This document shows positions 31,699-57,317 of a stretch of DNA of 64,000 bases, one piece after another. The notes beneath the pieces were generated by a model. It did no database searches. It was not told the origin of the DNA and was given only the letters and a program-made list of their open reading frames with translations. Both the position numbers and the translations under genes were made by a program. Source of the stretch: Rhodanobacter sp. C06 (GTDB lineage Bacteria > Pseudomonadota > Gammaproteobacteria > Xanthomonadales > Rhodanobacteraceae); assembly GCF_002001105.1 (NCBI RefSeq), contig NZ_MUNP01000028.1, positions 1-64,000 on the forward strand. Direction: 5' to 3'. How positions within the stretch are numbered: position 1 is the first letter of the stretch; each line of letters starts with the position of its first letter.

Positions 31699-33132
31699 TT
31701 ACATCTGCTCCAGTTCCTTGCCCCGCGTTTCCTTGACATAGCGGAGCACGAACACCGTCGACAACGCTGCCGCCACCGCATAGATGCCGTAGGTGGGCGC
31801 AAGCCCGATGCCGACCAACAGCAGCGGGAAGCTGATGGTGATGGCGAAGTTGGCGATCCACTGCGCGGCGCCGGACACCGCCAGGCTGGAGCCGCGAATC
31901 TGGTTCGGGAACATCTCGCCCAGCATCACCCACATCACCGGCCCCCACGACATGTTGAAGAACACGACGTAGACGTTGGCCGCGACCAGCGCCAGCGTGC
32001 CCATCGGTGACGGCAGCCCGAGTTTGCCGCTGGCATCCATGTGCGCATGCGCGAACGCCCAAGCCACCAGTGTCAGCGCCACCGCCATGCCCAGCGAACC
32101 GATCCACAGCAGCGGCTTGCGGCCGATCCGGTCCACCAGCGCCACGGTCACCAGGCAGGCGGCGATGCTGAGGCCGCCGGAAACCACGTTGATCAGCAGC
32201 GCATCGCTCTCGGAAAAGCCCACGGCCTGCCACAGCACGGCGCCGTAGTAGAACACCACGTTGATACCCACCAGTTGCTGCAACACCGCCAGCCCTATGC
32301 CCACCCACACGATCGGGCGAACCCGGTTCGTGGCCTTGTCCATCAGGTCGGACAGTCTGGGGCGGTGCCTGTCCTGCGCCAGTGAAGTGCCGATCTCGCC
32401 CAGCTTCGCGCGAGCGATATCGTGACCGTACAGGCGAACCAACACGACTTCCGCTTCCGCTTCGCGCTTGCGCATCACCAGGAAGCGCGGGCTCTCGGGA
32501 ATGAACACCAGCGAGACCAGGAACAGCGACGATGGTAGTACCTGCATCCAGAACATCCACCGCCATGCGTCTTGGCCCAGCCACAGCGCCTCGGTGGACG
32601 CACCCGCCGCCCTGGCCAGCAGGTAGTTGCTGAGGAAGGCGCAGAACAGGCCGCTGATGATGGCCACCTGCTGCATCGTGGCGAGGCGCCCGCGGTAGCG
32701 CGCGGGTGCCACCTCGGCGATGTAGGCCGGCGCGATCACACTGGCTGCACCGACTGCAAAACCGCCGGTGAGGCGCGCGAGGACGAAGAACGCCACGTCG
32801 TGTGCGGCGCCGGCGCCCAGCGCCGAGAACAGGAACAGGATAGCCGCGGCAATCAACACCGTGCGGCGCCCCTGGTAGTCGGCCGCGCGTCCGGCGAAGA
32901 ACGCGCCCACGGCGCAGCCCAGCAGCATCGAGGCCACCTCGAAACCGATCTCGGCGGCATTGGAGTGGAAGGCCAGCTTCAGGCCGTCCACCGTGCCGTT
33001 GATCACGCCGCTGTCGAAGCCGAACAGGAATCCACCCAAGGTGGCCACGCAGCTGATCTGCACGATCAGCCGCGTGTTTTCTGTCCGCTCCAGCGGTCCG
33101 GTGGCATCAAGCGTTGCGCTGTACATGTCCAC
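31699..33132 (-). CDS. Sugar/H+ symporter of the MFS (xylose-type)
   Basis: This 477-aa sugar porter has 12 helices and the family signatures GRAADYQGRRTVLI, PESPRFLVMRKRE, QQLVGINVVFYYG and VDRIGRKPLL. The position after xylA suggests xylose import. Most family members carry monosaccharides, so other sugars remain possible. A GTG at 33132 is preferred because GGGGAG sits six bases upstream. The ATG two codons later (33126) is the alternative. It follows xylA by 68 bp in the xylB-xylA-transporter operon. Confidence 0.88.
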   Translation of the reverse strand: MDMYSATLDATGPLERTENTRLIVQISCVATLGGFLFGFDSGVINGTVDGLKLAFHSNAAEIGFEVASMLLGCAVGAFFAGRAADYQGRRTVLIAAAILFLFSALGAGAAHDVAFFVLARLTGGFAVGAASVIAPAYIAEVAPARYRGRLATMQQVAIISGLFCAFLSNYLLARAAGASTEALWLGQDAWRWMFWMQVLPSSLFLVSLVFIPESPRFLVMRKREAEAEVVLVRLYGHDIARAKLGEIGTSLAQDRHRPRLSDLMDKATNRVRPIVWVGIGLAVLQQLVGINVVFYYGAVLWQAVGFSESDALLINVVSGGLSIAACLVTVALVDRIGRKPLLWIGSLGMAVALTLVAWAFAHAHMDASGKLGLPSPMGTLALVAANVYVVFFNMSWGPVMWVMLGEMFPNQIRGSSLAVSGAAQWIANFAITISFPLLLVGIGLAPTYGIYAVAAALSTVFVLRYVKETRGKELEQM

Positions 33133-33200
33133 GTCTGGCTCCCCTTTGGTCGGCTCGCAGGTTTCCCGATACCGCGACCCGCCGCGTGTGAAATGCGCGG

Positions 33201-34541
33201 TCAGGCGCGCACCAGGAACTGATTGATCAGGTTCTCGTAGCGCTCCTGCTTGCCGCTTCGCTGTGACGGCTCGCCGTGCGCAAGCGCGTGGGCGCGCAAG
33301 TCTTCCATGCCGAGCCGGCCGTCGGCAAACGCCCGGCCGTTGCCTTCGTCGAAACTGGCATAGCGATCCGCGCGCCACCGCTCCAGCGGCGAGCGCGTCA
33401 GCAGCGCATGCGCCACTTCCAGGCCCCGCGCAAAGGAATCCATGCCGCCGATGTGGGCGATGAACAAATCCTCGCCGTCGGTCGATTCGCGGCGTGCCTT
33501 GGCATCGAAGTTCAGGCCGCCGGGCGCCAACCCGCCCTGGCGCAGCACCACCAGCATAGCGCCCACGGTGTCGTAGAGGTCGCTGGGGAACTGGTCGGTA
33601 TCCCAGCCATTCTGCGGATTGCCGCGGTTGGCGTCGATGCTGCCGAGCAGGCCGTGGTCGGCGGAGACCTGCAGATCGTGCTCGAAGCTGTGGCCTGCCA
33701 GTGTGGCGTGGTTTGCCTCGATGTTGAGCTTGAAGTCCCGATCCAGGTCATGCTCCTTCAGAAAACCGGCGACCGTGGATGCATCGAAGTCGTACTGGTG
33801 CTTCATGGGCTCCATCGGCTTGGGCTCGATCAGGAAGTTGCCCTTGAAGCCGATGCTGCGGCCATAGTCACGTGCCATGGCGAGGAAGCGCGCGAAGTGT
33901 CCCAGCTCGCGCTTCATCTGTGTGTTGTGCAGCGAGGCGTAACCCTCACGACCGCCCCAGAACACGTAGTTGCTGCCGCCCAACTCCACCGTCGCGTCCA
34001 GCGCGGCCTTGACCTGCACCGCCGCGCGCGCCACCACCGCGAAGTCGGGGTTGGTGGCCGCACCGTTCATGTAGCGCGGATGGCTGAACAGGTTGGCGGT
34101 GCCCCATAGCAACTTCATGCCGGTGGCCTGCTGGCGCTCCTTCGCCAGCGCCACCATATGCCGCAGGTTCTGCTCGTACTGGGCCACGTCGTCGGCGTCG
34201 GGTGCCATGTCGATGTCGTGGAAGCAGTAGTACGGCACGCCCAGCTTGGTGAAGAACTCGAAGGCGGCGTCCATGCGCGCCTCGGCGCGGGCCATCGGCG
34301 CGTCGCCGGCATCCCAAGGGTAGTGCCGCGTTCCCGGCCCGAACGGATCATGGCCCGCATTGCAGAAGCTGTGCCAGTAGCACACCGCGAAGCGCAGGTG
34401 TTCGGCCATGGTCTTGTCGCCGATCTTCCGGTTCGCGTCGTAGTGCTTGAACGCCAGCGGGTTGTCCGAATCGCGCCCCTCGTAGGGGATGCGGCCGATG
34501 CCGCCGAAATATTCGCGCTTGCCGACGAAGGGAGTATTCAT
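33201..34541 (-). CDS. xylA: Xylose isomerase
   Basis: This 446-aa enzyme has the family signatures [15 protein letters not shown] (metal site) and FDAKARR, plus the catalytic His region CFHDID. It converts D-xylose to D-xylulose for XylB. The ATG at 34541 ([16 protein letters not shown]) matches the usual family length. An upstream ATG at 34571 overlaps the xylB stop (ATGA) and would add 10 residues, so coupled translation from there is possible. Confidence 0.96.
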
Positions 34542-34567
34542 GGAATGCGTTGCCTCTGCGGGTTGCT

Positions 34568-36094
34568 TCATTGGGGAAGTTCGGGGGGAGCGTTGCCGGC
34601 GATCCGGCCATGGGTATGCCGCTCGACCTTCAGCAGTGCGAGGAACTGCCGGTAAGGCTCCTGGTACGCGGCCACGTTCGCCGCCCGTGGCTGCACCGCG
34701 CGCGAACCGTCCAGCGCCACGTGTTCGTGTACGAGCTCGGCGATGGAAACCTGGTCTCCGCCACTGCAGCGCCATGCCCACAACGCCTGCAAGGCGGCGC
34801 CAAAGGCGGCGCCCTCGGTTTCCGCGGGTATCTCCACCGGCAGCTCGAACACGTCGGCCAGCAGTTGCCGCCACGGCGCACTGTTCGCTCCGCCGCCGGT
34901 CAGGCGGATCGTCCCGAAATCCAGGCCGGCGGTGCGCAAGGCGTCCAGGCCGTGGCGCAACGCGTAGGTCGCGCCCTCCATCGCCGCGCGATAGGCATTC
35001 GCGCGGGTGAAGTTGCCCGGTGTCATGCCATGCAGGCTGGCGCGTGCGGTGGGCAGGTCGGGCGTGCGCTCGCCATTGAAGAACGGCAGCATCAGCAAGC
35101 CGTCCGCGCCTGGCGCCGTGCGCTCGACCAGTGCATCGCCCTCCCCGGCCTCGAAGCCGAAGGCAGCGGCAACGCGCGCCGTGGCCACGGTGCAGTTCAT
35201 CGTGCAGACCAGCGGCAGCCAACCGCCGGTGGACGAACAGAACGCCGCCCAGAGCCCCTCCGCATCCACCACCGGACGATCGGCGCTGGCGAACAGCGTG
35301 CCCGAGGTGCCCAGGCTCACGCTGAGCACGCCCGGCTGCACGTTGCCGGTGCCGATCGCCGCCATCATGTTGTCGCCGCCGCCGGCCGACACGCGCACCG
35401 CATGCGGCAGGCCCAGTTCGTCGGCGGTGGCGGGTGCGATGGGCGCACTGAAATGCGCGTCGACCAGCGGCGGCAGGCAGCGCGACAGGTCGCGCTCCGC
35501 ATCGGTGGCCGCCAGCATCGCCGAGGACCAGCGGCGCCTGCGCACGTCCAGCCAGCCTGTGCCCGAGGCGTCGCCGCATTCCATCCAGCGTTCGCCGGTG
35601 AGCCACGCATTGATGTAGTCATGCGGCAGCAGGATGCCCGCGAGCCGGCGATAGACGTCCGGACGATGCTTGCGCGTCCACGGCAGCTTGGAAGCCGTGT
35701 AGCCCGCCAAGATGGGATTGCCCGCCAGCGCGATGCACTGCCGGTAACCGCCCGCCGCGGCCATGATCTCGTCGCACTCGCGCCAGCTGCTGGTGTCGCA
35801 CCACAGCTTGGCCGGTGCCAGCACCTCGCCCGCCGCGTCCAGCGGGACGAAACCGTGCTGCTGGCCGGAAACCCCGATCGCCACGACGCGTGCACGCAGG
35901 GTGGCATCGAGATCCGCGAAACATTGCCGGACCGCCTCAAGCCACCATTGGGGATGCTGCTCGCGGCTGCCGTCGGGGCCCTCGACCAGCGCCAGCGGCC
36001 GGCTGCGAACCGCAAGCATGCGGCGACGATCGGCGTCGTAGACAAGCAGCTTGACGCTCTGGGTGCCGATGTCGAGGCCGACAACAACGCTCAC
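34568..36094 (-). CDS. xylB: Xylulokinase
   Basis: This 508-aa FGGY kinase begins [18 protein letters not shown] (N-terminal ATPase motif) and has ISGQQHG-like [11 protein letters not shown] and the C-terminal [12 protein letters not shown] (about 400-411). It phosphorylates D-xylulose into the pentose phosphate pathway. A GTG at 36094 is the start. The frame is open upstream without a better start. It is first in the xylB-xylA-transporter operon, divergent from xylR. Confidence 0.94.
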
Positions 36095-36442
36095 GCCGCT
36101 GCCTGCCTTTGGCCCTCTGCGGCATCGCGGCTGGCCGGCGCCGCATTCCTCGTCGAAGCTTTCAAGATACCCACCCTTTTCAGGAATCCGGATCCAGACC
36201 GGTCGTGGTCGTGCCGGCAATCACTCGTCGCACGATCCGTGACGGCGCGGCAGACGGCCACGTCCGCGGCGATCGCGCTGCGCCTCGACTGCGATGCTGC
36301 GTTCGACGTTGCGGCGCCGCAATTGCGAAATCCGTCATCGCGCAGGTCATTTTCCGTGCCGCATTGCCGCATGTACGCAGTCGACCCAGCAGGTATCGTC
36401 GATCCAATCCGGTAGATGCCGTCCCAGCAGATCGTGGTATCC
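36095..36442. promoter_or_regulatory. Divergent xylB/xylR control region
   Basis: These 348 bp hold no credible gene and separate divergent xylB and xylR. CAATTGCGAAATC at 36320-36332 is identical to part of the longer motif upstream of the fucosidase gene and of the GH27 remnant/receptor. No clear -35/-10 pair was identified. Confidence 0.55.
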
Positions 36443-37669
36443 ATGCCATCCCCTCACCGCATCGCCCTGCTCTTCAACGCGAACAAGGTCTACGACCGTC
36501 ACGTCCTCACGGGCATCGGGCAATACCTGACGTCCACGCGCGTCGAGTGGGACCTGTTCATGGAAGAGGATTTCCGCTGCCGTACCGTGGGCATCCACCA
36601 CTGGCGCGGCGACGGCATCATCGCGGACTTCGACGACCCCATCGTGGGCGAGACGCTGTGCGGCCTGCCCTTGCCGGTGGTCGCGGTGGGCGGCTCCTAC
36701 GCCGACCCGGCGAACTATCCGGAAGGCATTCCCTACGTGGCCACGGACAACGCCAAGCTCGTTCGCCTGGCCTACGATCACCTCATCGACCAGGGGCTGC
36801 AGCGCTTCGCCTTCTACGGCCTGCCGCCCACGCCGAGCAACCGCTGGGCGCTTGAACGCGAGCAGGCGTTCCTCGGCATGACCCGCGTGGACAACCTCGA
36901 AGGCCAGGTGTTCCGCGGCTCGCCCACCAGTGCGGGCGGTTGGGGCATCGCCCAGGAAGCGATCGCGGACTGGGTGCGTTCGCTGCCCAAGCCCATCGGC
37001 ATCATCGCGGTCACCGACGCGCGCGCGCGCCACCTGCTGCAGGCCTGCATCGTGGCCGACGTGCCCGTGCCGGCCGAGATCGCGGTGGTGGGCATCGACA
37101 ACGATCCCATCGCGCAACTGCTCAGCCGCATCCCGCTGACGTCGGTGATCCAGGGCGCCGAGGAAATGGGCCATACCGCCGCCCGGCTGCTGCACCAGAT
37201 GCTGCACGGCGGACGGCTGGCCGAGCAGCGCATCGTCGTGCCGCCCAAGGGCATCAACGTGCAGGCAAGCAGCCGGCACGAACCGATGAACAACCAGTAC
37301 GTGATGCGGGCACTGCACTACATCCGCCAATACGCCTGCCTCGGCATCAAGACCGACCAGGTCGCCGACTATGTCGGTGTGTCGCGCACCCTGCTGGAGG
37401 AGCACTTCAAGCGCGAACTCAAGCTGACCGTCCACCAGGCCATCCTGCGCCACAAGCTGCAGACCGCGCGGCGGATGCTGGTCGACTCCGCCGTGCCGCT
37501 GGCCGACGTGGCCGTGCGCAGCGGCTTTACTTCGCTGCAGTACATGTATGCGGTATTTCGCCGCGAGCTCGGCTGCACGCCGCGCCAGTACGCCGAAGGG
37601 CTGCAAGGCGGCGAAGGAGCTCCCGACGATGTGGAGGGGCTGGCCGTGGTGGACGACACGGCACCGTAA
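36443..37669 (+). CDS. xylR: Xylose operon regulator XylR
   Basis: This 408-aa activator has a LacI/periplasmic-binding-like sensor domain (about 5-275), with ALLFNANKVYDRHVLTGIG and IIAVTDARARHLLQAC closely resembling E. coli XylR. A C-terminal AraC-type double HTH follows (about 290-390; DYVGVSRTLLEEHFKREL and VAVRSGFTSLQYMYAVFRRELGCTPRQY). It should activate xylose genes when xylose is bound. The ATG at 36443 is chosen by alignment with that start. An in-frame ATG at 36416 is the alternative. Confidence 0.94.
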   Translation: MPSPHRIALLFNANKVYDRHVLTGIGQYLTSTRVEWDLFMEEDFRCRTVGIHHWRGDGIIADFDDPIVGETLCGLPLPVVAVGGSYADPANYPEGIPYVATDNAKLVRLAYDHLIDQGLQRFAFYGLPPTPSNRWALEREQAFLGMTRVDNLEGQVFRGSPTSAGGWGIAQEAIADWVRSLPKPIGIIAVTDARARHLLQACIVADVPVPAEIAVVGIDNDPIAQLLSRIPLTSVIQGAEEMGHTAARLLHQMLHGGRLAEQRIVVPPKGINVQASSRHEPMNNQYVMRALHYIRQYACLGIKTDQVADYVGVSRTLLEEHFKRELKLTVHQAILRHKLQTARRMLVDSAVPLADVAVRSGFTSLQYMYAVFRRELGCTPRQYAEGLQGGEGAPDDVEGLAVVDDTAP

Positions 37670-37781
37670 CAAGCACCACCCGGGTGCCTGGGTGGCACGC
37701 GCCCGTCGCACCTGCGGAGCATTCGCCTCCCGCAGACGCTGGCATGCCGTGCCGCCACCTGGTTCGACGCGACCCGATGAA

Positions 37782-37824
37782 CAAAAAAGCATCGGCACGT
37801 GCGGGGGTGACGCATGTGCCGATG
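37782..37824 (-). terminator. Orphan leftward intrinsic terminator
   Basis: A 14-bp stem with one G-U pair (37790-37803 with 37811-37824, loop GGGGTGA on the plus strand) is followed on the minus strand by C and six Ts. No minus-strand gene precedes it for several kilobases. It may end a small RNA starting near 37850-37990. Confidence 0.7.
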
Positions 37825-37951
37825 GGAACCGGCGTGCGCGGGGAGGACGCACAAACCGACGAAAACACTGACATGGCGTGTCGAACCGATTGCAGCGGAC
37901 GTCGTGGAAGCCCGCTTGCTTGAGCGGATCGTGAAATGGCGTCGCCGAGGC

Positions 37952-37990
37952 GACAATTGCGAAATCAGCAGCAGACGCTAACGTTTCTTC
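37952..37990 (+). promoter_or_regulatory. Shared 39-bp upstream motif, fucosidase operon copy
   Basis: GACAATTGCGAAATCA, an 8-bp variable spacer, then CGCTAACGTTTCT-T-C. It is identical at 32 of 39 positions to 56752-56790. It lies 76 bp before the GH29 ATG. TTGCGA and TAACGT, 16 bp apart in both copies, could be the promoter core, or the whole may be an operator. Confidence 0.6.
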
Positions 37991-38066
37991 GTATGCGTTC
38001 GCACATCCGGCCTCGCTGGCGTGTGCTTGCTGCTAGCGTCTGACGACCCCTTCGCCAAGACATTCC

Positions 38067-39734
38067 ATGTCGCTCTTCCCGCACGCCAGGTTTCCACGCA
38101 GACTGCATCCTGCCCTGCTTCGCGGATGCCTGCTGTCCGCATGCGTCGTGGCGGGCTCGGCGGCATGGGCCGCACAGCCAGACAGCCAATCCGACGCTCC
38201 CACTGCGAAGACACTCAGACCGGCGCAGATGGATCAGGCCTGGCAGCGCGCCACGGCGCGCTACGCACCCGAGCGCAAGGCACTGCTGGCCGAAGTCGCG
38301 CAAGGCGATGCCATCGGGCCGTTCTGCCCCGACTGGATCTCCCTCGCGCAATACCGGGCACCGACCTGGTTCGGTGCCGCGAAGTTCGGCATCTTCATCC
38401 ACTGGGGCGTCTACGCCGTGCCGGCGTTCGCGAACGAGTGGTACCCGCGCAACATGTACGACGGCACGACACGCGAGCACGCCCACCAGCTCGACACCCT
38501 TGGCCCATTGACGCACCGCGGCTACAAGGATTTCATCGCCGGCTTCAAGGCACGGCACTGGGATCCCGCGGCGTGGGCCCGATTGTTCAAGCAGGCCGGC
38601 GCGCGCTATGTCGTGCAGGTGGCCGAGCATTCGGACGGCTTCGCCATGTACGACTCGCGGCTGTCGCGCTGGACTGCCGCGCTGATGGGGCCGAAGCGCG
38701 ACGTGGTGGCGGCGCTGGAACGAGCCGTGCGTGCCGAAGGCCTGCGCTTTGGTCTGTCCTCGCATCGCGCCGAACACGACTGGTTCTTCGACCACGGCCG
38801 CGAGCTCGCCTCCGACGTGAACGATCCAGCCGATGCCGACTTCTACGGCCCCGCCGTGCCGCACTTCGCGCAGGATGGCGACCAGGACCTGCAACAGGAC
38901 TGGACCTACGTCTCGCCCACTTACGTGGACGACTGGCTGGCACGCACGGCAGAACTGGAAGCCTATTACCGGCCCGATCTGATCTACCTCGACTGGTGGG
39001 TGGGCCACCCTGCATTCCGCGGCGCGCTAGCCGAGTTCCTCGCCTACTACTACAACCGCGGTGCGCAACGCGACGGCGTGGTGCTCAACTACAAGTTGCA
39101 TGCGCTGCCCGCCGGGAGTGCGGTCCTCGACGTGGAGCGCGGCCAGCTGGGCGATATCCGCCCCACGCCGTGGCAGACCGACACCACCATCAGCAACGGC
39201 TCATGGGGCTACGTGGAGCACGACATCTACCGTTCGGCCACCTCGATCATCCAGCTGCTGGCCGACGTGGTGAGCAAGAACGGCAACCTGTTGCTGGATG
39301 TCGGTCCGCGACCGGACGGAACCATCGTGCCGCAGGAACAGGCCGTGCTGCTGGAAATCGGCCGATGGCTGGCTACCAATGGAGCGGCGATCTACGGCAG
39401 CCATCCGTGGCGCGTGTCCGGTGAAGGCCCCACCGCGCCGACCACCGGCGCCTTCAAGGAACAACTGGCCAGGCCCTGGACCACCGACGATTTCCGCTTC
39501 ACCCGCAACAAGGACCTGCTGTACGCCATCGAGTTCGGCTGGCCAGCCGACGGCACGACCGTCATCCGCAGCATCAAGCCGGCCGACCGCGTGCGGGACG
39601 TGCGCCTGCTGGGTTCGTCCACGCCGGTGCACTGGGAAAACACCGGGCAAGGACTGGTGCTCCATGTCGGTTCGCGTCCCGCCGGCCCCGCAGCCTTCGT
39701 CTACGCCATTCGCACCGCGACGGATACGCCATGA
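38067..39734 (+). CDS. Secreted GH29 alpha-L-fucosidase
   Basis: This 555-aa protein has a signal peptide (LLSACVVAGSAAWA, about 20-36) and the GH29 features FGIFIHWGVYAVPAFANEWYPRNMY and the nucleophile Asp in DLIYLDWW. A C-terminal beta-sandwich follows. It removes terminal fucose, and fucosylated xyloglucan side chains are the likely substrate in this setting. Other xyloglucan loci often use GH95 instead. The next gene overlaps it by 4 bp, and the conserved motif lies upstream. Confidence 0.92.
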   Translation: MSLFPHARFPRRLHPALLRGCLLSACVVAGSAAWAAQPDSQSDAPTAKTLRPAQMDQAWQRATARYAPERKALLAEVAQGDAIGPFCPDWISLAQYRAPTWFGAAKFGIFIHWGVYAVPAFANEWYPRNMYDGTTREHAHQLDTLGPLTHRGYKDFIAGFKARHWDPAAWARLFKQAGARYVVQVAEHSDGFAMYDSRLSRWTAALMGPKRDVVAALERAVRAEGLRFGLSSHRAEHDWFFDHGRELASDVNDPADADFYGPAVPHFAQDGDQDLQQDWTYVSPTYVDDWLARTAELEAYYRPDLIYLDWWVGHPAFRGALAEFLAYYYNRGAQRDGVVLNYKLHALPAGSAVLDVERGQLGDIRPTPWQTDTTISNGSWGYVEHDIYRSATSIIQLLADVVSKNGNLLLDVGPRPDGTIVPQEQAVLLEIGRWLATNGAAIYGSHPWRVSGEGPTAPTTGAFKEQLARPWTTDDFRFTRNKDLLYAIEFGWPADGTTVIRSIKPADRVRDVRLLGSSTPVHWENTGQGLVLHVGSRPAGPAAFVYAIRTATDTP

Positions 39735-41425: not shown

Positions 41426-41506
41426 GCCGCGCAGCGCGACTCGCGCACCAGCGGCGAGCACGAACGGGCCGGTATGCGGCGTACCGCCCGACCCGCTCAT
41501 GCCGCT

Positions 41507-42169: not shown

Positions 42170-42259
42170 GGCGCCACCGCCAGGGTTGCCGGGTCGGGGG
42201 CGGTGGGTGGTAGGTGCGTCATCGGTCCGCACCCGTCAGGCAACGGACGCATGCATGGC

Positions 42260-47637: not shown

Positions 47638-47648
47638 GCAGACATCCT

Positions 47649-49283
47649 TCAGTACGTGGCCAGCTTCACGCGCAGCCACTGCGGTTCACTGGTGAGATTG
47701 AGGCCCCAGTCGGTCTGGTCGCCGTTCCACACGCGCAGGAACTGCCATTGGCCGTCGACGTAGCGGCCCTCCTCCACGCGCTCGAACAACGCATGTTTGC
47801 CAGCGTTGCGGCCGGCCGGCTGGAAGCTCACACGCGCGTGGCAGCCGGCCACCAGGTATTCGTCGCGGCCGATCTGCACGATCAGCACGCCACCCTGCGG
47901 CGTGGGATTGCCCTTGGCCTCGGGCATGCCGAACTGCGGCAGACCGTAGCCGACCTGCGCCTGCCAGGCGCCCAGGTCGATCTGCTGGGTATGCGTCTGC
48001 TCGGGTTCGGATACACCCCACAGCTTGCCCTCGAAGCCGGCCTTGGCGACCAGCGAGGCAATCGGACGCAGCAGCTCGTAGTCCAGCGCGAAAGGCTTGA
48101 GCGTATCGGCGTCGATCTTGCGTGCGCCCAGCGGCCAGTTGGAGTAGCCGGTGAAATCCATGCCGAACGGCGAGAAGCCGATGGCGCCATGCCCCAGCGC
48201 CGCGAACACGTAGCGCGCATACGGCGCCGCGCTGCCTGTTTCGGCAATGAACAGCGGATTGTCGGAGCGGCTGTAGCGGTCCAGCACGGCGGTGTACTTC
48301 GCGTACTCCGGCAGGTAGATGTCCGGTGCGATCAGGTCGAGCGCGGGCGCCGCCGCGCGCCAGATGCCGAGCACGTTGTCGGTGGGACCGCCGCTGGCGT
48401 AGCCGCCTGGCGGGCCCGGATGGAACGGATCGCGCAGCGCGACATTGGCGTACATCGGCAAGTCGTAGACGGCCTTGCCGGCGGCGGCGACCTGGTCGAT
48501 GTAGTGCGCGATGGCCCAGGCGTAGGAGAACTCCGCCGCGTCCTTGCCGAACACGGCCGTCCAGCTGCCGGCCTTGCGCCCGGTTTTCGCCAGCACCGCC
48601 GCGGGCACCGGCGATTGCAGCAGCCTGTCTCCGGCGGTGGAGTAGTCGCGGTCCGTACCGTAGGTGCCCGACTCGTTTTCCACCTGCACCATGATCACGG
48701 TATGGCGTTCGCCGTCGATGGCGCGCAGGTGCTTCATCAAGGCCGTGAAGGCGGCGCGGTCGGCGTCCAGCGTGGATGCCGCGAACGGCGACAGCGAGTC
48801 AAGCGTGTCGCCGTCCTTCTTCAGCACGCGGGGGAAGCGCTTGTTGTCCAGCTTCACCCAGGCCGGCGCATAGGCGGGACCGTTGTTCTTCCAGGTGGCG
48901 AACCACAACAGCGCCAGGCGCACGTGATGCTCGCGCGCCTGGCTCAGCAAGGTGTCGAGGAAGCTGAAATCGAAATGCCCCTCGCTGGGCTCGATCTGCT
49001 CCCAGGCGATCGGCACCTGCACGGTGTTCACGTGCAGCGCATCCATCGCCGGCCATACCTCGGGCAGCATCGCCGGCCACGCGCTGGAGTTGTTCACCTG
49101 CGCGCCCAGCATCAGCCAGGGCTGGCCGTCCACCAGCAACATGTGGCGGCCGTGGGCGCTGACCAGGCGCGGCAGCGGAGTGGCGGCGATGGCGGGCAAC
49201 GCCGTGGCGAGGCAGGCTGCCGCAGCGAGCAGCAGCGACCACCTGCCCATGCGGCGGAATCGATGGTTCGAGTGCGGCTTCAT
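47649..49283 (-). CDS. GH35 beta-galactosidase (DUF5597-type)
   Basis: This 544-aa secreted protein has a signal peptide (LLLAAAACLATALPAIA), a GH35 barrel with acid/base Glu in QVENESGTYG and nucleophile Glu in FIAETGSA, and a C-terminal domain of the DUF5597 kind. Cellvibrio Bgl35A of the xyloglucan locus has this layout. It would remove galactose from xyloglucan side chains. It lies between the esterase (3-bp gap) and GH3. Confidence 0.9.
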   Translation of the reverse strand: MKPHSNHRFRRMGRWSLLLAAAACLATALPAIAATPLPRLVSAHGRHMLLVDGQPWLMLGAQVNNSSAWPAMLPEVWPAMDALHVNTVQVPIAWEQIEPSEGHFDFSFLDTLLSQAREHHVRLALLWFATWKNNGPAYAPAWVKLDNKRFPRVLKKDGDTLDSLSPFAASTLDADRAAFTALMKHLRAIDGERHTVIMVQVENESGTYGTDRDYSTAGDRLLQSPVPAAVLAKTGRKAGSWTAVFGKDAAEFSYAWAIAHYIDQVAAAGKAVYDLPMYANVALRDPFHPGPPGGYASGGPTDNVLGIWRAAAPALDLIAPDIYLPEYAKYTAVLDRYSRSDNPLFIAETGSAAPYARYVFAALGHGAIGFSPFGMDFTGYSNWPLGARKIDADTLKPFALDYELLRPIASLVAKAGFEGKLWGVSEPEQTHTQQIDLGAWQAQVGYGLPQFGMPEAKGNPTPQGGVLIVQIGRDEYLVAGCHARVSFQPAGRNAGKHALFERVEEGRYVDGQWQFLRVWNGDQTDWGLNLTSEPQWLRVKLATY

Positions 49284-49286
49284 CGT

Positions 49287-51224
49287 CTACCGCTCCCGGC
49301 TGCGGAACGGCGCCGCTGGCAGGCCATCGCGATTGACGAGATTGGCCGCGACCGGGTCCTCGCTCCACGCATAGCGCACCGATGCCGGGTGCCCGACCGC
49401 GTTGCTCACCGCCACCACGGTGGTGCCTTCGATGCGCGCTTGCGCAGGGTGGTAGCGGCCGTTCGCGCCGGCCAGCTCGAAACCATGCACGTCCTGGCCG
49501 CCACCGCGCACCGCCAACGGCTCGCCCTGGGTGTCGAACGACAGCACGGCGTGGCTGCCATCCACGCGCATGCCGCGATACAGCGGGCCGGCGTCGACCA
49601 ACTTGTCGCCGAAAGTCACGCGGCGCGCGACCAGCGCCAGCCGGTGGCCGACGTCCTGCTTGTCGGTGGGATGGATGTTGTCGCTTTCGCCGAGATCGAT
49701 GATGACGGCCTGCCCAGTGTGCGGCAGCGACAGGGCGGCGGCCTGCGACTCGCGCAGCTCGGCCCACGGACTTTCCGTGGCGGTGTCCTCGCCCGCTTTG
49801 AAATTGGGCAGCTGCACCCAGAAGAAGGGCAAATCCGGCCGTCCCCACTGCGCGCGCCAGGATTCGATCAGCGCCTTGAACTGGCCGCGGTAGCGCAGCG
49901 CATTGCTCGCGCTCGCGTTGGTTTCGCCCTGGTACCAGACGACGCCGCGCAATGGATAGCCGATCAGCGGATGCAGCATCGCGTTGTAGAGCAGGGTCGG
50001 CGTGAGTTGATCCTGGCTGGTGGGTACCACCGTCACCGCGGCGGGGCGGAAACGCCACTGGCCCACCAGCGAGCGACGCGTGCCGTCGGCCAGTTGCAGG
50101 TAGACCTCGTCGGGCTTGCCGGCCATGCCGCCACCGCCGCCAAGATCGTCCACGCGCACGGCGATGCTGTTGTTGCCGGCGTGCAAGTCGGCCGCGGGCA
50201 CCTTGTAGATGCGTGGCGTATTCCACGCGAGATCCATGTGGCCCACCGGATGGCCATTCACGAAGCTCTGGTCGGAATCGTCGATGCGGCCCAGGCCCAG
50301 CGTCACTCCCTGCGCGGCCTCGGCGGCGCTGAGCGTGAACTGCCTCCGATACCACGCGACGCCGTCCATGTCGTAGTAACCGACCGGTTCCCAGTCGGAT
50401 GGCACCGGCAGGCTGTCCCAGTCGGAGACATCGAGTTTTTCTGCCGCCCAGGCCAGCGAGCCATCGGCGGCTTTGACATCGGCGTGCAGCGCGGGCCAGT
50501 GCGCGATGCGCTTGTAGGTCCGTGCATTCCCCACCGCATCGGCTGCATCGTCGGCCTGCTTCTTCGCCGCCACCGCCGCCACGTCGAAATGGCCGGTCTG
50601 CGCGTCCGTCCATGCCTCGATGGCACTGCCGCCCCAGCTGCTGTTGATGAGCCCCTGCGGCACGTGCGTGCGCGCCTGCATGTCGCGCGCGAAGAACCAG
50701 CACACAGCGGAGAACTGGCCCACCGTGGACGGATTTGCCGCCACCCAGTTGCCGCCCTGCAATTGCCGCTGCGGCCTGATGGCAGAGCTGTGCGGGATCT
50801 TGAACTGGCGGATGGACGGATCGTCGCCGCGCGCCTGCTCCGCCTCGGCATCGCGCCCCTGCGACACCATGAACTCCATGTTCGACTGGCCGGAACACAG
50901 CCATACGTCACCCACCAGCACGTCGCCGATGCGGCGATGCTCGTGGCCGTCGTCGACCTCCAGCACATACGGTCCACCGGCCGCATGCGCCGGCAGCGTC
51001 GCCTGCCAGCGCCCCTGCGCGTCGGTCACCGCGTTTGCCTGCTTGCCGTCGAAATCCAGCCTCACCTTTGTGCCGGGGGTGTCCCAGCCCCATACGTGGA
51101 TCGGCCGTTCGCGCTGCAACACGGCGCCCCGGGAGTACAGCAGCGGCAAGTCGAGCGTGGCCTGTGCGACGCCCGGCAACAACGAAGCCAACGCCAGCGC
51201 CGCAGAGAGAGAAAGCATTTTCAT
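49287..51224 (-). CDS. SGNH acetylesterase, CE20-like
   Basis: This 645-aa secreted protein of the sialate O-acetylesterase/SGNH type has the Ser block GQSNMEF, Gly in SSWGGSAIEAW, Asn in WYQGETNAS, and the Asp-His pair in DNIHPTDK. A beta-sandwich (about 255-370) is inserted in the hydrolase fold. As I recall, this is the layout of CE20, founded on a Xanthomonas xyloglucan acetylesterase. The ATG overlaps the GH74 stop (ATGA), so esterase and endoglucanase are coupled. Deacetylation would expose the backbone or galactose to the neighbouring enzymes. Confidence 0.88.
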   Translation of the reverse strand: MKMLSLSAALALASLLPGVAQATLDLPLLYSRGAVLQRERPIHVWGWDTPGTKVRLDFDGKQANAVTDAQGRWQATLPAHAAGGPYVLEVDDGHEHRRIGDVLVGDVWLCSGQSNMEFMVSQGRDAEAEQARGDDPSIRQFKIPHSSAIRPQRQLQGGNWVAANPSTVGQFSAVCWFFARDMQARTHVPQGLINSSWGGSAIEAWTDAQTGHFDVAAVAAKKQADDAADAVGNARTYKRIAHWPALHADVKAADGSLAWAAEKLDVSDWDSLPVPSDWEPVGYYDMDGVAWYRRQFTLSAAEAAQGVTLGLGRIDDSDQSFVNGHPVGHMDLAWNTPRIYKVPAADLHAGNNSIAVRVDDLGGGGGMAGKPDEVYLQLADGTRRSLVGQWRFRPAAVTVVPTSQDQLTPTLLYNAMLHPLIGYPLRGVVWYQGETNASASNALRYRGQFKALIESWRAQWGRPDLPFFWVQLPNFKAGEDTATESPWAELRESQAAALSLPHTGQAVIIDLGESDNIHPTDKQDVGHRLALVARRVTFGDKLVDAGPLYRGMRVDGSHAVLSFDTQGEPLAVRGGGQDVHGFELAGANGRYHPAQARIEGTTVVAVSNAVGHPASVRYAWSEDPVAANLVNRDGLPAAPFRSRER

Positions 51225-53455
51225 GGAGTGGATTCCTCGGGATCGCCATAGACGATGCCGCGCCCGCTGGTGGCCAGATACACGCGACCAAATACGCGCG
51301 GGTCGCCAGTGAGATGGGTGATGCGGCCGTACTGGTGGGCGTTGTCGTCGATGCGCCGCCAGTGCCGGCCGCCATCGTCCGAACGGTAGATCCCCTGCTG
51401 TCCGTCCAGGCGCCCGGCCACGAACAGCGTGGACTGGTGGCCCCCCGGAGCCGACTTGCCGAAGCCGAAGGCGTCGACGCCGTCGATCCCGGGCAAGGTC
51501 GCCTGCAGCTTGCCGCCGTCTTCGCCGCGCAGCAGCAGCAGGTCGCGCGCAGCGAGGTAGAGTTCGCCAGCCGCATCGGGCGAGGCCCGCAGTTGCACAT
51601 GGTCATGGCCGCGCGCGGCGGCGCCCAAGGCGCCGGCCAGCGGCGCGAAGCTGGCGCCGCCGTCGTGGCTGACGAACAGCGCACCACTCTTCGCGTCGAA
51701 GGCGTAGCAACGCTGCGCATCGAAACGGTCGCCGAGCACGTTCACGCCGCCCGGCAAGCCCGCCGCCACCTGCCAGTGATGGCCGAAGTCGCGCGTGAGC
51801 CAAACATGCTTCGCGTTGCGCGGTGCCCACAGCACGCCGCTGCCATCAGCCGTCAGCGCGATGCTGCCGGCGCCCTCGCCTTCCGGTGGTTCGCTGGCGA
51901 ATGCCTGCCAGCGCCGTCCCCCGTCATCGGACCAGGACGCGCGCACCGCCGGCCCGAACGGCTCGCGCAGGTAGCCGCTGCGCACGATCCGCTCCGGCCG
52001 CTGCCCCGCGTAGTCGATGGCTTCGCTGTTGGCGTAGCGCGGCGGCGCCTGGAACTGCAGCGGCGCCACACCGAGATCGTCGTGGCGGTAGCCATCCAGA
52101 TCGCCCAGCGCGCTCAGCAGGTGCGCGCCCTGCGGCGGGCTGATCAGGCCCAGCGGAACGGTTTCCTCCAGCCCGCGATCCACGAACGTCCAGTGCACCT
52201 CACCGCCCGCATCGAGCCGGCCCATGTCGCGCGTGGACCACAGGCCGTAGCCGGTGACGAAGATCACGTGGCCGGGATCGAACGGATCGATGGCCACGGT
52301 GGTCATCCAGTGCGGCGTGTGCTCGACCGTCCAGGGCGCCTCGCGGCGGTCGAACACCGAATGCGCGAACACCTCGACCCAGTGCGCGCCGCGGTCGGTG
52401 CTGCGGAACAGCAGGTCGTGCGGTGTGTAGCGATGATGCGTGCTGGCAACCAGCACCGCCGGATCGGAGGGCGCCACCGCGACGTCGCCCCAGCCGAAGC
52501 CCGCGGGCTTGCCGCGGCCGGGCCGGCTTTGATCGGGTATCGGCGTGATGTCGGTCCAACGGCTGCTGGCCGGCTGCCAGCGCCAGAGGGCGCCGTCGTC
52601 CATGGTGTCCGGACCGGGCTCGTCGCCGTAGCTCAGGTAATAGTCGCCGTCGCTGGCGCGGTGCATGTGGCTTGGCCGCAGGCCCACGGGCTGGCCCGGC
52701 ACGGCGCTCCAGCTGCGGCCGCCGTCGGCGGAACGGAACAGGCTGGCCTGCCGGGTGGACACGCCGGCGTAGATCACCGGTGTCGGCTGGCCGCGCCGGC
52801 CGCTGGCCGGATCGAACACCACGAACACGATGCCGATGGGTTGCGTGCGCCAGGCATTGCTTGCGCTGGACGATGGCGAGGTGGCCACGGCGGGGAAACC
52901 GTCCACCTTCGCCCAGTGCGCGCCATGGTCGGCACTGCGCCACAAGCCAGCATCGCGCGAGCCGAGGAACAGCACGCGGCCGTCGTTCGGGTCCACCGCC
53001 AGCCGCTCGCCGTTGCCGCGCCCCAGCTCGTTGCCGCCGAGCTTGAACGGCAGATCCGCGCGCCGGAAGCTGCGCCCCCGGTCGTGCGAACGCAGGATCG
53101 CGGCATCGCCTGCCTGGGGTGTGGTGTACATGCCCGCGGCGAGATACAGCCACTGCGGATCGGACGGATCGATCGCGAGGCTGTCGATGCCGAGCAGGTT
53201 GGCGTCCTTCGCCGCGATCCAGTCGGTCAGCGGCTGCCAACGTTCGTGTTCCTGATCCCAGCGATAAGCGCCACCCACGTCGGTGCGCGCGTAATACAGG
53301 CCGCGCACCGAGGGGTGAAAGAGCAGACCGGAGACATAGCCACCGCCACCGATGCGTACGTTGGTGAAGTGGTAGGGAGTGGCGGCGGGTTGGCTGGCGT
53401 GGACACTCAGCGCGAAGAACAAAGAGCAGGCCATGGCGCCGATGGTTCTGAACAT
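51221..53455 (-). CDS. GH74 endo-xyloglucanase
   Basis: This 744-aa secreted protein is made of two seven-bladed propellers. It shows repeated sialidase-type motifs (RSADGGRSW, RSTDRGAHW, SWSDDGGRRW) and the GH74 catalytic Asp positions in YARTDVGGAYRW and FGWGDVAVAP. GH74 enzymes are largely specific for xyloglucan, which makes this the key diagnostic gene of the locus. The ATG at 53455 precedes a signal peptide (MACSLFFALSVHA). It lies downstream of the receptor. Confidence 0.93.
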   Translation of the reverse strand: MFRTIGAMACSLFFALSVHASQPAATPYHFTNVRIGGGGYVSGLLFHPSVRGLYYARTDVGGAYRWDQEHERWQPLTDWIAAKDANLLGIDSLAIDPSDPQWLYLAAGMYTTPQAGDAAILRSHDRGRSFRRADLPFKLGGNELGRGNGERLAVDPNDGRVLFLGSRDAGLWRSADHGAHWAKVDGFPAVATSPSSSASNAWRTQPIGIVFVVFDPASGRRGQPTPVIYAGVSTRQASLFRSADGGRSWSAVPGQPVGLRPSHMHRASDGDYYLSYGDEPGPDTMDDGALWRWQPASSRWTDITPIPDQSRPGRGKPAGFGWGDVAVAPSDPAVLVASTHHRYTPHDLLFRSTDRGAHWVEVFAHSVFDRREAPWTVEHTPHWMTTVAIDPFDPGHVIFVTGYGLWSTRDMGRLDAGGEVHWTFVDRGLEETVPLGLISPPQGAHLLSALGDLDGYRHDDLGVAPLQFQAPPRYANSEAIDYAGQRPERIVRSGYLREPFGPAVRASWSDDGGRRWQAFASEPPEGEGAGSIALTADGSGVLWAPRNAKHVWLTRDFGHHWQVAAGLPGGVNVLGDRFDAQRCYAFDAKSGALFVSHDGGASFAPLAGALGAAARGHDHVQLRASPDAAGELYLAARDLLLLRGEDGGKLQATLPGIDGVDAFGFGKSAPGGHQSTLFVAGRLDGQQGIYRSDDGGRHWRRIDDNAHQYGRITHLTGDPRVFGRVYLATSGRGIVYGDPEESTP

Positions 53456-53609: not shown

Positions 53610-56609
53610 TCAGAACGCCACGCGCAGCGTCAGCGCATAACGGGTGTCGTTCACGTACCAGGAAGTGACGTGCTTGCCGGATGCGTTCTGATCCATGATC
53701 GTGCGCTGTTCGGCATTGTTGAGGTTGTTCATTTCCAGGCCGAGCTTCACGTGCTCGTTGAACGCGTAGAAGACCGAACCGTCCAACTGTCCGTAGGCAT
53801 CGGCGAATACCGGCAGCTTCCACGGAATGTTGTTGTCGGTGCCGTTGTAGCCATTCGGGCCGATCGACAGCAGATACTGACTGCGCCAGTTGTAGGCCAG
53901 CCGGATCTGCCACGGACCGTGCTCGTAGAAGCCGGCGACATTGAGGGAGTTCCTCGACAGGCCATCTGCCGGGAGGCTGCCGTAGGTGGAGCCATCCGTA
54001 TCGATCGGCACCGCCGTGGTGTCGTTCGGCACATGGGTCCTGCTCCGGATGTAGGTGTAGTTCACCGACATGCCGAAGCCCTTGACCGGCAGGAAATCGA
54101 AGAACTGGTTCCAGCCGATTTCCGCGCCATCGATCGTCGCCTTGCCGACGTTCACCGGACGGGTGATCAGATACTGGTAGTTGTTGCCGTCGACACCCGG
54201 ATACGCCACGAACTGCGACTCGTTGCGGAAATAGTCGCTGATCCCCTTGTGGAACAGGTTGACCCAGGCCATGCCGCCGCGGTCCTGGTCGAAATACCAC
54301 TCCAGCGACAGATCGAACTGGTTGGCCTTCATCGGCGTCAGGTACGGATTGCTGTTGGAGCTACCGGTCAAGGTCAGCTTGTCGAGTGGCAGGGTGGTTG
54401 TGCCGGCCGGCGGCGTATAGCCCGACAGCACCCCGGCATTGAGAATCTGATAGGCCTGCATCTGGCTGAAATCCGGCCGCGCAATCGCCTTGGAGAAGGC
54501 AAAGCGCGTGATCCAGTTCGGAGCGAACTCCCACTTCACGTTCAAGCTGGGCAGGACGTCGGTGTACTCGTTGCGCGCATTGATGGGGGAAGACTGGCCC
54601 GTGCCCAGATAAGGCGCCAACGCCTGGTTTGGATACACCACAAAGCCATCGGCGGCGTTCCTGGTCTTCACCGCGCGTACGCCGATGTTGCCGCTCAGGC
54701 CGACCTCATCCACCCCGAAGTCGAGCATGGCGTACGCCGCATAGGTCTTTTCGTGCTGAAGGTTGGTGTACGCGGCATCGAGCAGCGTGGGCTGGTACGG
54801 GACGTTGTAGCCGCCACCGATGTAATACGGAATGGCGGCGTCGTGGATGGCCGCGTAGCTGCCCGGATAGCCCAGCGCAGTCGACAGCACCGGTGCATAG
54901 AACGCACCCGGCGTGCCCGCGCCGCCCCGGTAGAAGTTGCTGAACGTGTCCAGGTGCACCAGGTTGCTATTGACCGTGCCGTTCAAGTCCAAGCCGGGTA
55001 ATGCGCCGGCAGGCATCGCCCAGCCCTGCATCCAGGTCTGGAACACAGGTATCCAGTGGTAGCCGGTATCGATGTTGTTGGCGTAGCGGTTGGTCAGGCG
55101 CACGCCCGCCTTCACCCCCTGCACGAACCCGTCGACGAAGCTGTGGTCGATGTCGGCACGCCAGGCCAGTTCTTTCGCGTAGTTCTGGTCCTGGTGGTCC
55201 TGGGTGAATCCCCAGTAGTAGTTGGCAGGGTCCCCGGTGAAGCTGGAATCGACACCGATGCGCGGCGGGCTGTTGCCGTTCAGGGCGACGTCGATGTAGG
55301 GCACGTTGGTGCCCAGGGCCACCGTGGAATCCAGGCTGCTTGTAGTGGCCTTGACGAACTGCAACGAGCTCGTGAGTTCGGTGCTTGTGCCCAGCCGCCA
55401 CTTCATCCCGGTGGAGAAATTCGTGGTTTTGGAGTGGCTGTTGGACGCCTGGATGTCGGTGCCCATCGGCACGCCGCCGTTCTGCGTGAGGCGACCGGAC
55501 TGGAACACGCCACCATTGACCACGCTCGGCTGGCTTGCGTCCACCATCACCTGCGTCGGGTCGTTGCTCACGAAGATCGCATCCTCGTTCCAGACCTCGT
55601 GGTATTTGCTCTGGAACGCGGTGGCGTAAAGGTCGACGTCGTCGTTGGGGCGCCACTGGAAGGCCAGATAGGCGCCATCGCGTTTGCGGTCGTAGCGCAG
55701 GGTGCGCCAGTCGGCGCCGCGCGGCACCCAGATGCCGCCCGCGTTCTTGAAGAACGGACGCACGAACAGGCCATCGGTACGCGTGGCCAGGCGGGAATCG
55801 GCGACATCGACGAGGAAACCCATTTCGCCGAGGCTGGTTTGCCAGCGGTTGCTGTAGAGCACCGAGGCGGACGGCTTGTACTTCTCGGCAAAGTTGCCGT
55901 AGTTCTCGCTGGCCGAAGCGGCGATCTTCTGGCCCTGGAAGTCGAAGGGCATGAAGGTGCGCAGGTTCACCGTGCCACCCAGGCCGCCCTCGATCATCTC
56001 GGCCGTCTGGTTCTTGTAGACGTCGACGCCGGACATCAATTCCGATGGCACGTCCTGGAAGCTGAGGGCGCGCCCGCCGTTGGCGGAAAAACTGTCGCCG
56101 CCATTCAATTCGGAACGCACCTGCGTGAGGCCGCGCACCTGCACGCCATTGCCTTCGGCAGAGAAGTGTTCCGGATCGCCTTGCGAGAGGAAATGGTCGA
56201 TGGTGACGCCGGGAATGCGCGACAGGGTTTCAGTGACGCTGCGATCCGGCAGCGCGCCGATGTCCGTGGCGGACAACGAATCGACGAAGGTGTCGGCGTC
56301 GCGCTTGATGTCCTGCGCCTTCTCGACTGATGCGCGGATGCCGGTCACCACGACGGCAGAGAGGTCCTTGGTCTGCTTGGCGCCCGCCTTCTCGGCCTTT
56401 TTCTTCGATGGCTTCGCGCTGGTTGCAGCTGCCTGCGACGCCTCCTGGTCCTGCGGCTGCCCCTGCGGCGCCCATGCGGCCGGCTGCGCATGCAGCGCCA
56501 GCGGCCCACAGCACAGCAGTCCGAAGGCGATTGCGCTGGACAAACGCGCCATCGGGAGCTTCCTCGCCGCGTAACGGCGTCCGGCATCAAACGTGGTGTT
56601 GCCCATCAT
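53610..56609 (-). CDS. TonB-dependent receptor, Xanthomonas type
   Basis: This 999-aa outer-membrane receptor has a signal peptide (about 25-43), a Lys/Ala-rich linker, a TonB-box-like LSAVVVTG and a plug domain (ALPDRSVTETLSRIPGV, then QVRGL). A 22-strand barrel follows, ending in an aromatic residue (LRVAF). The ATG at 56609 has GGAG eight bases upstream. It should import oligosaccharides released by GH74. It is the first gene of the operon with GH74-CE20-GH35-GH3-GH31-GntR. A 154-bp gap containing a small hairpin separates it from GH74. Confidence 0.95.
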   Translation of the reverse strand: MMGNTTFDAGRRYAARKLPMARLSSAIAFGLLCCGPLALHAQPAAWAPQGQPQDQEASQAAATSAKPSKKKAEKAGAKQTKDLSAVVVTGIRASVEKAQDIKRDADTFVDSLSATDIGALPDRSVTETLSRIPGVTIDHFLSQGDPEHFSAEGNGVQVRGLTQVRSELNGGDSFSANGGRALSFQDVPSELMSGVDVYKNQTAEMIEGGLGGTVNLRTFMPFDFQGQKIAASASENYGNFAEKYKPSASVLYSNRWQTSLGEMGFLVDVADSRLATRTDGLFVRPFFKNAGGIWVPRGADWRTLRYDRKRDGAYLAFQWRPNDDVDLYATAFQSKYHEVWNEDAIFVSNDPTQVMVDASQPSVVNGGVFQSGRLTQNGGVPMGTDIQASNSHSKTTNFSTGMKWRLGTSTELTSSLQFVKATTSSLDSTVALGTNVPYIDVALNGNSPPRIGVDSSFTGDPANYYWGFTQDHQDQNYAKELAWRADIDHSFVDGFVQGVKAGVRLTNRYANNIDTGYHWIPVFQTWMQGWAMPAGALPGLDLNGTVNSNLVHLDTFSNFYRGGAGTPGAFYAPVLSTALGYPGSYAAIHDAAIPYYIGGGYNVPYQPTLLDAAYTNLQHEKTYAAYAMLDFGVDEVGLSGNIGVRAVKTRNAADGFVVYPNQALAPYLGTGQSSPINARNEYTDVLPSLNVKWEFAPNWITRFAFSKAIARPDFSQMQAYQILNAGVLSGYTPPAGTTTLPLDKLTLTGSSNSNPYLTPMKANQFDLSLEWYFDQDRGGMAWVNLFHKGISDYFRNESQFVAYPGVDGNNYQYLITRPVNVGKATIDGAEIGWNQFFDFLPVKGFGMSVNYTYIRSRTHVPNDTTAVPIDTDGSTYGSLPADGLSRNSLNVAGFYEHGPWQIRLAYNWRSQYLLSIGPNGYNGTDNNIPWKLPVFADAYGQLDGSVFYAFNEHVKLGLEMNNLNNAEQRTIMDQNASGKHVTSWYVNDTRYALTLRVAF

Positions 56610-56973
56610 GTTGGTCTCTCCCCAAGATTTGACATGGCCGACCATTTCGACAGTCCGTCGGCTCCCCCGCGAGATGCGCAACCAGCCCGAGCCCGTTCGC
56701 AAGCTCATCGCTTCAGCGCATGTTGGATGCTGTCGCGCCGCACTAAAATCGGACAATTGCGAAATCAAAAGTCCGCGCTAACGTTTCTCCATGTGCGTCT
56801 GCAGCATGCCCAGTGCCGGAGTTGCTCCCCAGCTGGCTTTGACCTCGCGCAGCCTGGTCAGCCGAGGCCACTTCCACGCCACTGCATGACGGGAACGCGT
56901 GTTTTGCCCGTGCTGTTGCGGCCGAGACAGTGCGCAGTTCATTGCCGCGCCACCCACCAGCGGAGCACGCTGC
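56610..56973. promoter_or_regulatory. Divergent region between the receptor gene and the GH27 remnant
   Basis: This 364-bp region has no gene. It carries the second long copy of the shared motif at 56752-56790. The motif lies 142 bp upstream of the receptor (in reverse orientation) and 183 bp upstream of the GH27 remnant (same orientation as at the fucosidase). Confidence 0.6.
56752..56790 (+). promoter_or_regulatory. Shared 39-bp upstream motif, receptor/GH27 copy
   Basis: The two blocks are the same as at 37952-37990 (GACAATTGCGAAATCA and CGCTAACGTTTCT), with identical spacing and only 7 mismatches in 39 positions. Confidence 0.6.
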
Positions 56974-57234
56974 ATGCGTTCGCTCGTTCTCTCGCTCGCC
57001 CAGGCCACCATGTTCATCACCGCACCGGTGACGGCCGAAACGCACGTGGCCGCCGTCCCGCCGATGGGCTGGCACGGCTGGAACCATTTCGCGCGGAAAG
57101 TCACCGGCACCGATGTGCGGGCGGCGGCCGATGCCATCGTTTTCAGTGGCAAGCGCGACGCCAGCTGCGTCTACATCAACATCGACGACCCCAGGCAGGG
57201 CAAGCACGGCCCGGACTCGGCGCCCTTGCCAGTC
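56974..57234 (+). pseudogene. Truncated GH27 alpha-galactosidase
   Basis: The gene keeps a ribosome site (GGAG eight bases before ATG), a signal peptide (ITAPVTA) and the start of a GH27 barrel (PPMGWHGWNHFARKV, then DAIVFSGKRDASCVYINIDD). After about 85 residues, homology ends and the frame continues with unrelated sequence to 57405. The catalytic Asp region is missing. It is probably a remnant of an alpha-galactosidase once part of this locus. Confidence 0.75.
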
Positions 57235-57317
57235 GCAACTCCATGGCTGGCTCGAGACGAACAGAGTGACCACGACAGCACGAGTCAAACATTCTTTGGC
57301 CAGCAAAGGAACCTGCG

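Follow-up and report, generated by a model that had tools for sequence, protein, structure and literature searches.

A probable Xanthomonas-type xyloglucan utilisation locus in Rhodanobacter sp. C06 with an altered GH29 clade and a promoter box attributed to an AraC-type XylR

We analysed the first 64,000 nucleotides of contig NZ_MUNP01000028.1 of Rhodanobacter sp. C06 (the window), which belongs to a draft genome of 4.14 Mb in 82 contigs. Thirteen genes lying between positions 31699 and 56609 probably make up a Xanthomonas-type xyloglucan utilisation locus (XyGUL), carried by a Rhodanobacter-like bacterium; the locus would be controlled by a XylR regulator of the AraC type and work in the manner proposed below. 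Xyloglucan as the target, put forward in an earlier note on this DNA, has good support from enzyme homology and from synteny, and the locus may be complete, as that note had it. Two features look new, namely an altered clade of GH29 enzymes and a box of 13 bp present at three promoter sites. The genes were established by Pfam, NCBIfam and PDB sequence searches, with start codons chosen, and every gene named in the earlier note was found at its place:

31699..33126, minus strand: XylE-like sugar porter of the major facilitator superfamily (MFS), predicted inner-membrane xylose/sugar uptake (Pfam Sugar_tr, 5.7e-106)
33201..34541, minus strand: xylA, xylose isomerase (TIGR02630, 680 bits, above the cut-off of 533)
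34568..36094, minus strand: xylB, xylulokinase (TIGR01312, 519 bits, above the cut-off of 380)
36416..37669, plus strand: XylR, LacI/GalR-like sensor and AraC DNA-binding domain (PF22177, 1.1e-43; HTH_18, 5e-20)
38067..39734, plus strand: GH29, predicted alpha-L-fucosidase, with H189S, F308L and N411D relative to its nearest kin (PF01120, 315 bits, cut-off 25.2; alignments)
39731..41425, plus strand: GH43, predicted alpha-L-arabinofuranosidase or xylosidase (Pfam, 1.1e-86)
41507..42169, minus strand: GntR-family regulator with FCD domain (Pfam)
42260..45115, minus strand: GH31, predicted alpha-xylosidase of 951 aa with inserted PA14 (best PDB match 7kmp, then 2xvg)
45112..47637, minus strand: GH3, predicted beta-glucosidase with PA14 (Pfam and PDB)
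47649..49283, minus strand: GH35, predicted beta-galactosidase of the DUF5597 type (NF051902, 516 bits, above the cut-off of 500)
49287..51224, minus strand: CE20, predicted xyloglucan acetylesterase (best PDB match 7kmm)
51221..53455, minus strand: GH74, predicted endo-xyloglucanase (best PDB match 7kn8)
53610..56609, minus strand: TonB-dependent receptor, predicted oligosaccharide uptake (TIGR01782, 623 bits; Pfam)

The minus strand carries the run receptor-GH74-CE20-GH35-GH3-GH31-GntR followed by xylB-xylA-MFS, and the plus strand xylR followed by GH29-GH43, with operon-like overlaps of 4 bases in the gene coordinates at GH74/CE20, GH3/GH31 and GH29/GH43. The 'linked xylR operon' of the earlier note proved to be a single xylR gene, divergent from the xyl operon and outside it. 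Scans of positions 36000-42400 returned no sigma-70-like promoter site and two terminator-like sites, no excess over shuffled sequence. The GH43 protein starts with RRNLFKAM, which we take to be a twin-arginine-like (Tat) motif, and the MFS porter scores 369 bits against the XylE model of NCBIfam, below its cut-off of 608.

The assignment to xyloglucan is carried by the closest solved relatives of the enzymes. Pfam finds weak BNR/sortilin matches in GH74, whose identity rests on its best PDB match, 7kn8 (E 3e-251); the best match of CE20 is 7kmm (E 9e-212, aligned over residues 15-642), that of GH31 is 7kmp (E 0), followed by 2xvg (Cellvibrio Xyl31A), and those of GH35 are 8fa4 and, second, 7kmn. 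According to the available text of PMC8245568, 7KN8 is XccXeg74, 7KMM is XacXaeA, the founder of CE20, 7KMP is XacXyl31 and 7KMN is XacGalD. GH43 matched GH43 enzymes broadly, including BoGH43A/B of the Bacteroides ovatus XyGUL, which did not come first, and GH3 matched many beta-glucosidases; the TonB-dependent receptor had no PDB relative at E 0.01.

The locus was then compared with known systems. With the Xanthomonas citri XyGUL (XAC1768-XAC1774) it shares GH74, CE20, GH35, GH31 and TonB-dependent transport, as well as the adjoining genes for xylulokinase, xylose isomerase and an MFS transporter (XAC1775-1777; Vieira et al. 2021, PMC8245568, in the available text), and in X. citri the XyGUL and the adjacent xylose genes are induced by xyloglucan oligosaccharides (PMC8245568, same text). 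Linkage to xylose catabolism is therefore already known, since that text describes it beside the XyGUL; the earlier note had counted the xylose genes as a difference from Xanthomonas, a view that cannot be kept, and we rejected them as a novelty. Real differences are the single receptor in the 26-62 kb stretch (contig C2 has its next receptors at 65.8 and 78.4 kb) against two TonB-dependent transporters in X. citri, and a GH29 inside the locus, with no GH95 in the 36-kb stretch, against a GH95 there. Furthermore, GH3 and GH43 lie inside the locus here and outside it in Xanthomonas, and the AraC-type XylR and the GntR gene set the present locus apart, the former being without mention in the available text of PMC8245568. 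The Xanthomonas XylR is described as a LacI-type repressor of xylan loci (PMC13282271, in the text available), from which the predicted AraC-type XylR found here differs. The Cellvibrio japonicus XyGUL (Larsbrink et al. 2014) has in common a GH31 with PA14 and a GH35 of the same types, whereas its GH31, GH35 and GH95 genes are syntenic and unlinked to the endoxyloglucanase and esterase genes (PMC8245568, as far as its available text goes). The B. ovatus XyGUL holds weaker relatives of GH31, GH43 and GH3 (BoGH31A, BoGH43A/B and BoGH3B), but its gene order differs and no Sus-type transporter was called in our Pfam scans. Among the entries listed, the titles and abstracts of open-licence literature on xyloglucan in Rhodanobacter or Dyella, XylR regulons and GH29/GH95 contained no description of this locus.

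Comparison with related genomes placed this gene content in context. A GH74 match at E 1e-30 was obtained in 32 of 147 genomes of the window's family; 31 of these were mapped (G243, with a 37% match, was left out) together with 7 XyGULs from another family of the order, using stretches of 17-58 kb and tblastn at E 1e-25. Because homologues surround GH74 in these relatives, the clustering of the genes is not a matter of chance. The seven loci of the other family follow the order receptor-receptor-GH74-CE20-GH35-GH31-GH95-(xylB-xylA)-xylT, with GH95 and CE20 in 7/7 and xylB and xylA in 4/7, and GH29, GH3, GH43 and an AraC-type XylR were each found in 0/7 of these XyGUL stretches. In the window's family GH95 occurs in one stretch of the 31 (G191), XylR in 24, GH29 in 14 (nine of these forming the single clade described below), GH3 above 60% identity in 21, GH43 above 60% in 10 and CE20 above 50% in 11. 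The GntR gene, described earlier as terminal, is indeed the last gene of the run that leads from the receptor to GH31, but it is sporadic, being present in 4/31 stretches, and so is not a defining feature. In the window and in G184, G137 and G150, xylB-xylR-GH29-GH43 occupies the place of GH95 in the other family. How one fucosidase family comes to be exchanged for another, while the rest of the locus stays collinear, is a question that these loci raise.

Several variations were seen among these stretches. In G184, whose GH29 is 95% identical to that of the window, GntR and GH3 are separated by a long insertion that holds a second GH74 (39%), additional GH29s and other GH31 genes. A GH31 of about 40% identity replaces the 951-aa PA14 alpha-xylosidase in G137, G150, G123 and G184, and no CE20 was found in these stretches. 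XyGUL receptors fall into two groups, one with 76-90% and the other with 36-42% identity to that of the window, and G157 has both. The GH74 of G239, a metagenome-assembled genome, is split into two overlapping pieces that lie in different frames, owing either to a frameshift or to faulty assembly.

That GH29 takes the part of GH95, as the earlier note put it, holds inside the locus but not for the genome, which has a GH95 above the Pfam cut-off on contig C32 (G000:C32:16000-35999), next to GH27, GH35, GH89, a purple acid phosphatase and a second GH29. Because its neighbours are GH27, GH35, GH89 and another GH29, this C32 cluster looks aimed at a different glycan. With a GH95 in the genome, to regard GH29 as a mere stand-in for an absent GH95 is too simple.

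The GH29 query (P0004) matched 49/147 family genomes at E 1e-30; a search of 274 genomes of the class for kin outside the order gave a match at E 1e-60 in one genome, the window's own. GH29 proteins were collected from the fetched stretches, leaving out tblastn pieces below 80 bits and identical proteins, and a tree was built by a quick method from 72 rows (rows below 470 aa left out), comprising 55 His-type, 9 Ser/Thr-type and 8 distant sequences whose motif is not readable; residues were compared over the 64 rows whose motif could be read. The nine XyGUL GH29s with the motif EH(S/T)DGF form one clade (SH-aLRT 99), in contrast to the EHHDGF of 55/55 other readable rows. The two sets can be told apart at eight positions, of which three are in conserved motifs: position 189 (S in 8 and T in 1 of the clade, H in 55 relatives; His188-Ser189 in the window), position 308 directly before the nucleophile (L in 9, F in 55; Asn in FgFCO1) and position 411 (D in 9, N in 55). 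The nucleophile Asp309 and the acid/base Glu357 are conserved, aligning with Asp226 and Glu288 of FgFCO1, a xyloglucan-active GH29 of Fusarium graminearum, which has His126-His127 where the window's clade has His-Ser/Thr (PMC7711723, available text). The second histidine (H127 in FgFCO1, H129 in TmFuc, H86 in BiAfcB) is a highly conserved first-shell residue (PMC7711723, Table 1), and its absence here raises the question of whether the enzyme is active, and on which sugar.

Three alternatives to a fucosidase serving xyloglucan were weighed. There is a slim chance that the clade is catalytically impaired and that the GH95 on C32 does the work, as the loss of the first-shell histidine and the presence of a GH95 above the Pfam cut-off would suggest; yet the gene is an open frame with a signal-like start, nucleophile and acid/base are kept, the substitutions are conserved in nine sequences, and the GH95 sits with GH27, GH35, GH89 and another GH29. 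Somewhat less remote, though still improbable, is a non-fucosidase that removes another L-sugar, for example the alpha-L-galactose of xyloglucan: three conserved active-site positions have changed together, and the closest solved relatives, 7snk and 7ljj, are entries of BpGH29 (PMC11189522, available text), the latter named an exo-alpha-L-galactosidase. Nearness to these structures says little about the sugar of the clade, however, because both retain the His and the Asn that the clade has lost. Fucose is moreover the commoner xyloglucan cap, which counts against the other L-sugar. The third alternative, that GH29 is a passenger in the locus and serves a different glycan (for instance the alpha-1,3-fucose on plant N-glycans, where NixE of Xanthomonas plays its role), is very unlikely. 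It draws on NixE being a GH29A of X. campestris (PMC10154630, available text) and on GH29s of the same subgroup that are found at other places in genomes of the family, in some cases next to a different GH3 (G182, G237). The Ser/Thr clade, on the other hand, is found on GH74-bearing contigs only (9/9), eight of its members within 16 kb, and the GH29 promoter carries the box. In G184 the distance is 20 kb to a GH74 paralogue and 43 kb to the main GH74, and in G229, G226, G157, G239 and G122 the Ser/Thr-type GH29 is located beyond the receptor, on the strand opposite to it. His-type GH29s adjoin GH74 in G120 and G191 and lie 18-32 kb off in G182, G183 and G237; since they too adjoin GH74, the histidine change is not required for the XyGUL position.

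The second new-looking feature emerged from comparing upstream regions, which share a 13-mer, CAATTGCGAAATC, as an exact match at three sites:

36320..36332, plus strand: box 1, between xylB and xylR
37954..37966, plus strand: box 2, 113 bp before the GH29 start
56754..56766, plus strand: box 3, 145 bp before the receptor start

Across the 4.14 Mb CAATTGCGAAATC occurs exactly three times, always in promoters of this locus, with one further site at one mismatch and none for the reversed pattern; a 14-base version allowing up to two mismatches matched three times in the window against 0.18 expected. Among the relatives, a box with at most two mismatches precedes 29/31 family receptors (8 with at most one), 19/23 xylR, 10/14 GH29 and 9/20 xylB genes, compared with means of 0.13, 0.10, 0.05 and 0.02, respectively, for 60 letter-permuted patterns. 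At the same stringency it was found upstream of 1/31 GH74, 0/22 GH31 and 0/10 GH43 genes and of 0/7 receptors in the other family. A degenerate form, CAATTRCGAAATY, gave 110 matches in 57/147 family genomes (3 for the reversed control) and is present in 31/32 GH74 genomes as against 26/115 others. At the receptor sites a longer pattern is held in common, whose second conserved half lies some 21-45 bases further on; this arrangement would fit an AraC-type protein on two half-sites. A second element, CGCTAACGTTTC, stands 9 bases after boxes 2 and 3 (37976-37987 and 56776-56787) and occurs twice in the window against 0.20 expected.

The box is probably the operator of the AraC-type XylR, with xylose as the likely signal. 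The window protein combines a PBP1_XylR sensor with an AraC DNA-binding domain and is a full-length relative of the xylose operon regulatory protein in 4fe4/4fe7 (E 1e-117); it has a two-domain make-up identical to that of this E. coli XylR, matched over residues 13-394, and differs in that the presumed box also precedes a polysaccharide uptake operon. We consider it unlikely that the box is read by another regulator, LacI- or GntR-type or a general activator, and that XylR is merely nearby. Such a regulator would account for boxes in genomes that have no XylR match, for xylR genes without an exact box upstream and for CGCTAACGTTTC, which the receptor and GH29 promoters share and which is missing at the xylB/xylR site. 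It fits less well with the box in the upstream region of xylR itself, as CAATTRCGAAATY within 300 bp of 26/48 family xylR genes and with up to two mismatches in 19/23 of those in XyGUL stretches. GntR was set aside as owner of the box or of CGCTAACGTTTC, because few stretches have a GntR gene and the receptor promoters of G137, G150 and G123 hold both elements with no GntR nearby.

A number of observations speak against the combined picture of locus, GH29 and regulator. The receptors of G046 and G053 lack the box, and for 22/48 family xylR genes the 300 bp upstream contain no exact match to the degenerate form. Conversely, 25/101 genomes without a XylR match contain boxes (five in G185), among them the XyGUL bearer G123, whose receptor is preceded by one, and 32 boxes are spread over 23 genomes with neither XylR nor GH74. 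The box counts are also partly circular, because some of the loci counted had served to define the box. As to gene content, 17/31 family stretches have no GH29 and only 11/31 have a CE20 above 50% identity, and the window GH29 is missing its conserved first-shell histidine. It is because of G123, the XylR-less genomes with boxes, the xylR genes and receptors without them, and this circularity that we place XylR as the reader no higher than probable.

Of the 110 CAATTRCGAAATY matches, 52 lie neither within 25 kb of GH74 nor before xylR. Seven of these sites were viewed, and at six of them the frames scanned, which were not every frame, included no gene for xylose or xyloglucan. In G168 (C5:136000-145000, site 4278) the box coincides with the beginning of a GH5 cellulase frame, which may be another gene controlled by this regulator, and the box sequence offers a means of finding further target genes.

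On these grounds we propose the following working of the locus, with activities and compartments as predicted. GH74 would cut xyloglucan, and the oligosaccharides would reach the periplasm through the TonB-dependent receptor; CE20 would take off acetyl groups, GH29 alpha-L-fucose, GH43 arabinofuranose (or xylose) and GH35 galactose, and GH31 and GH3 would remove xylose and glucose in alternation. The MFS porter, XylA and XylB would feed the xylose into the pentose phosphate pathway. Xylose-bound XylR would act from the boxes at 36320, 37954 and 56754 on xylBAT, xylR, GH29-GH43 and the receptor operon; if XylR acts on all of these, released xylose would switch on the enzymes that release it. 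A further question is whether xyloglucan uptake in soil Rhodanobacteraceae has come under the control of an AraC-type XylR; the XylR of the xylan loci in Xanthomonas is of the LacI type. A bolder version is possible but doubtful: that in Rhodanobacteraceae the ancestral GH95 of the XyGUL gave way to a GH29 clade with a rebuilt -1 subsite (Ser/Thr for His, Leu for the Phe preceding the nucleophile, Asp for Asn), which would suit the enzyme to a xyloglucan side chain in a manner unseen in characterised GH29s and perhaps give it a new sugar specificity, and that in addition the whole locus is a single-input regulon in which XylR reads xyloglucan via xylose alone, through an operator present nowhere else in this genome.

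Two neighbouring regions were also noted. Directly upstream of the receptor, at 57318-59353, the window encodes a histidine kinase and an OmpR-type response regulator, which stand beside the receptor in G184 too. On the other flank, positions 14113-31544 carry genes for a molybdopterin oxidoreductase, a nitrite/sulphite reductase, MoeA, an ABC transporter ATPase and a solute-binding protein, a set that looks like nitrate assimilation.

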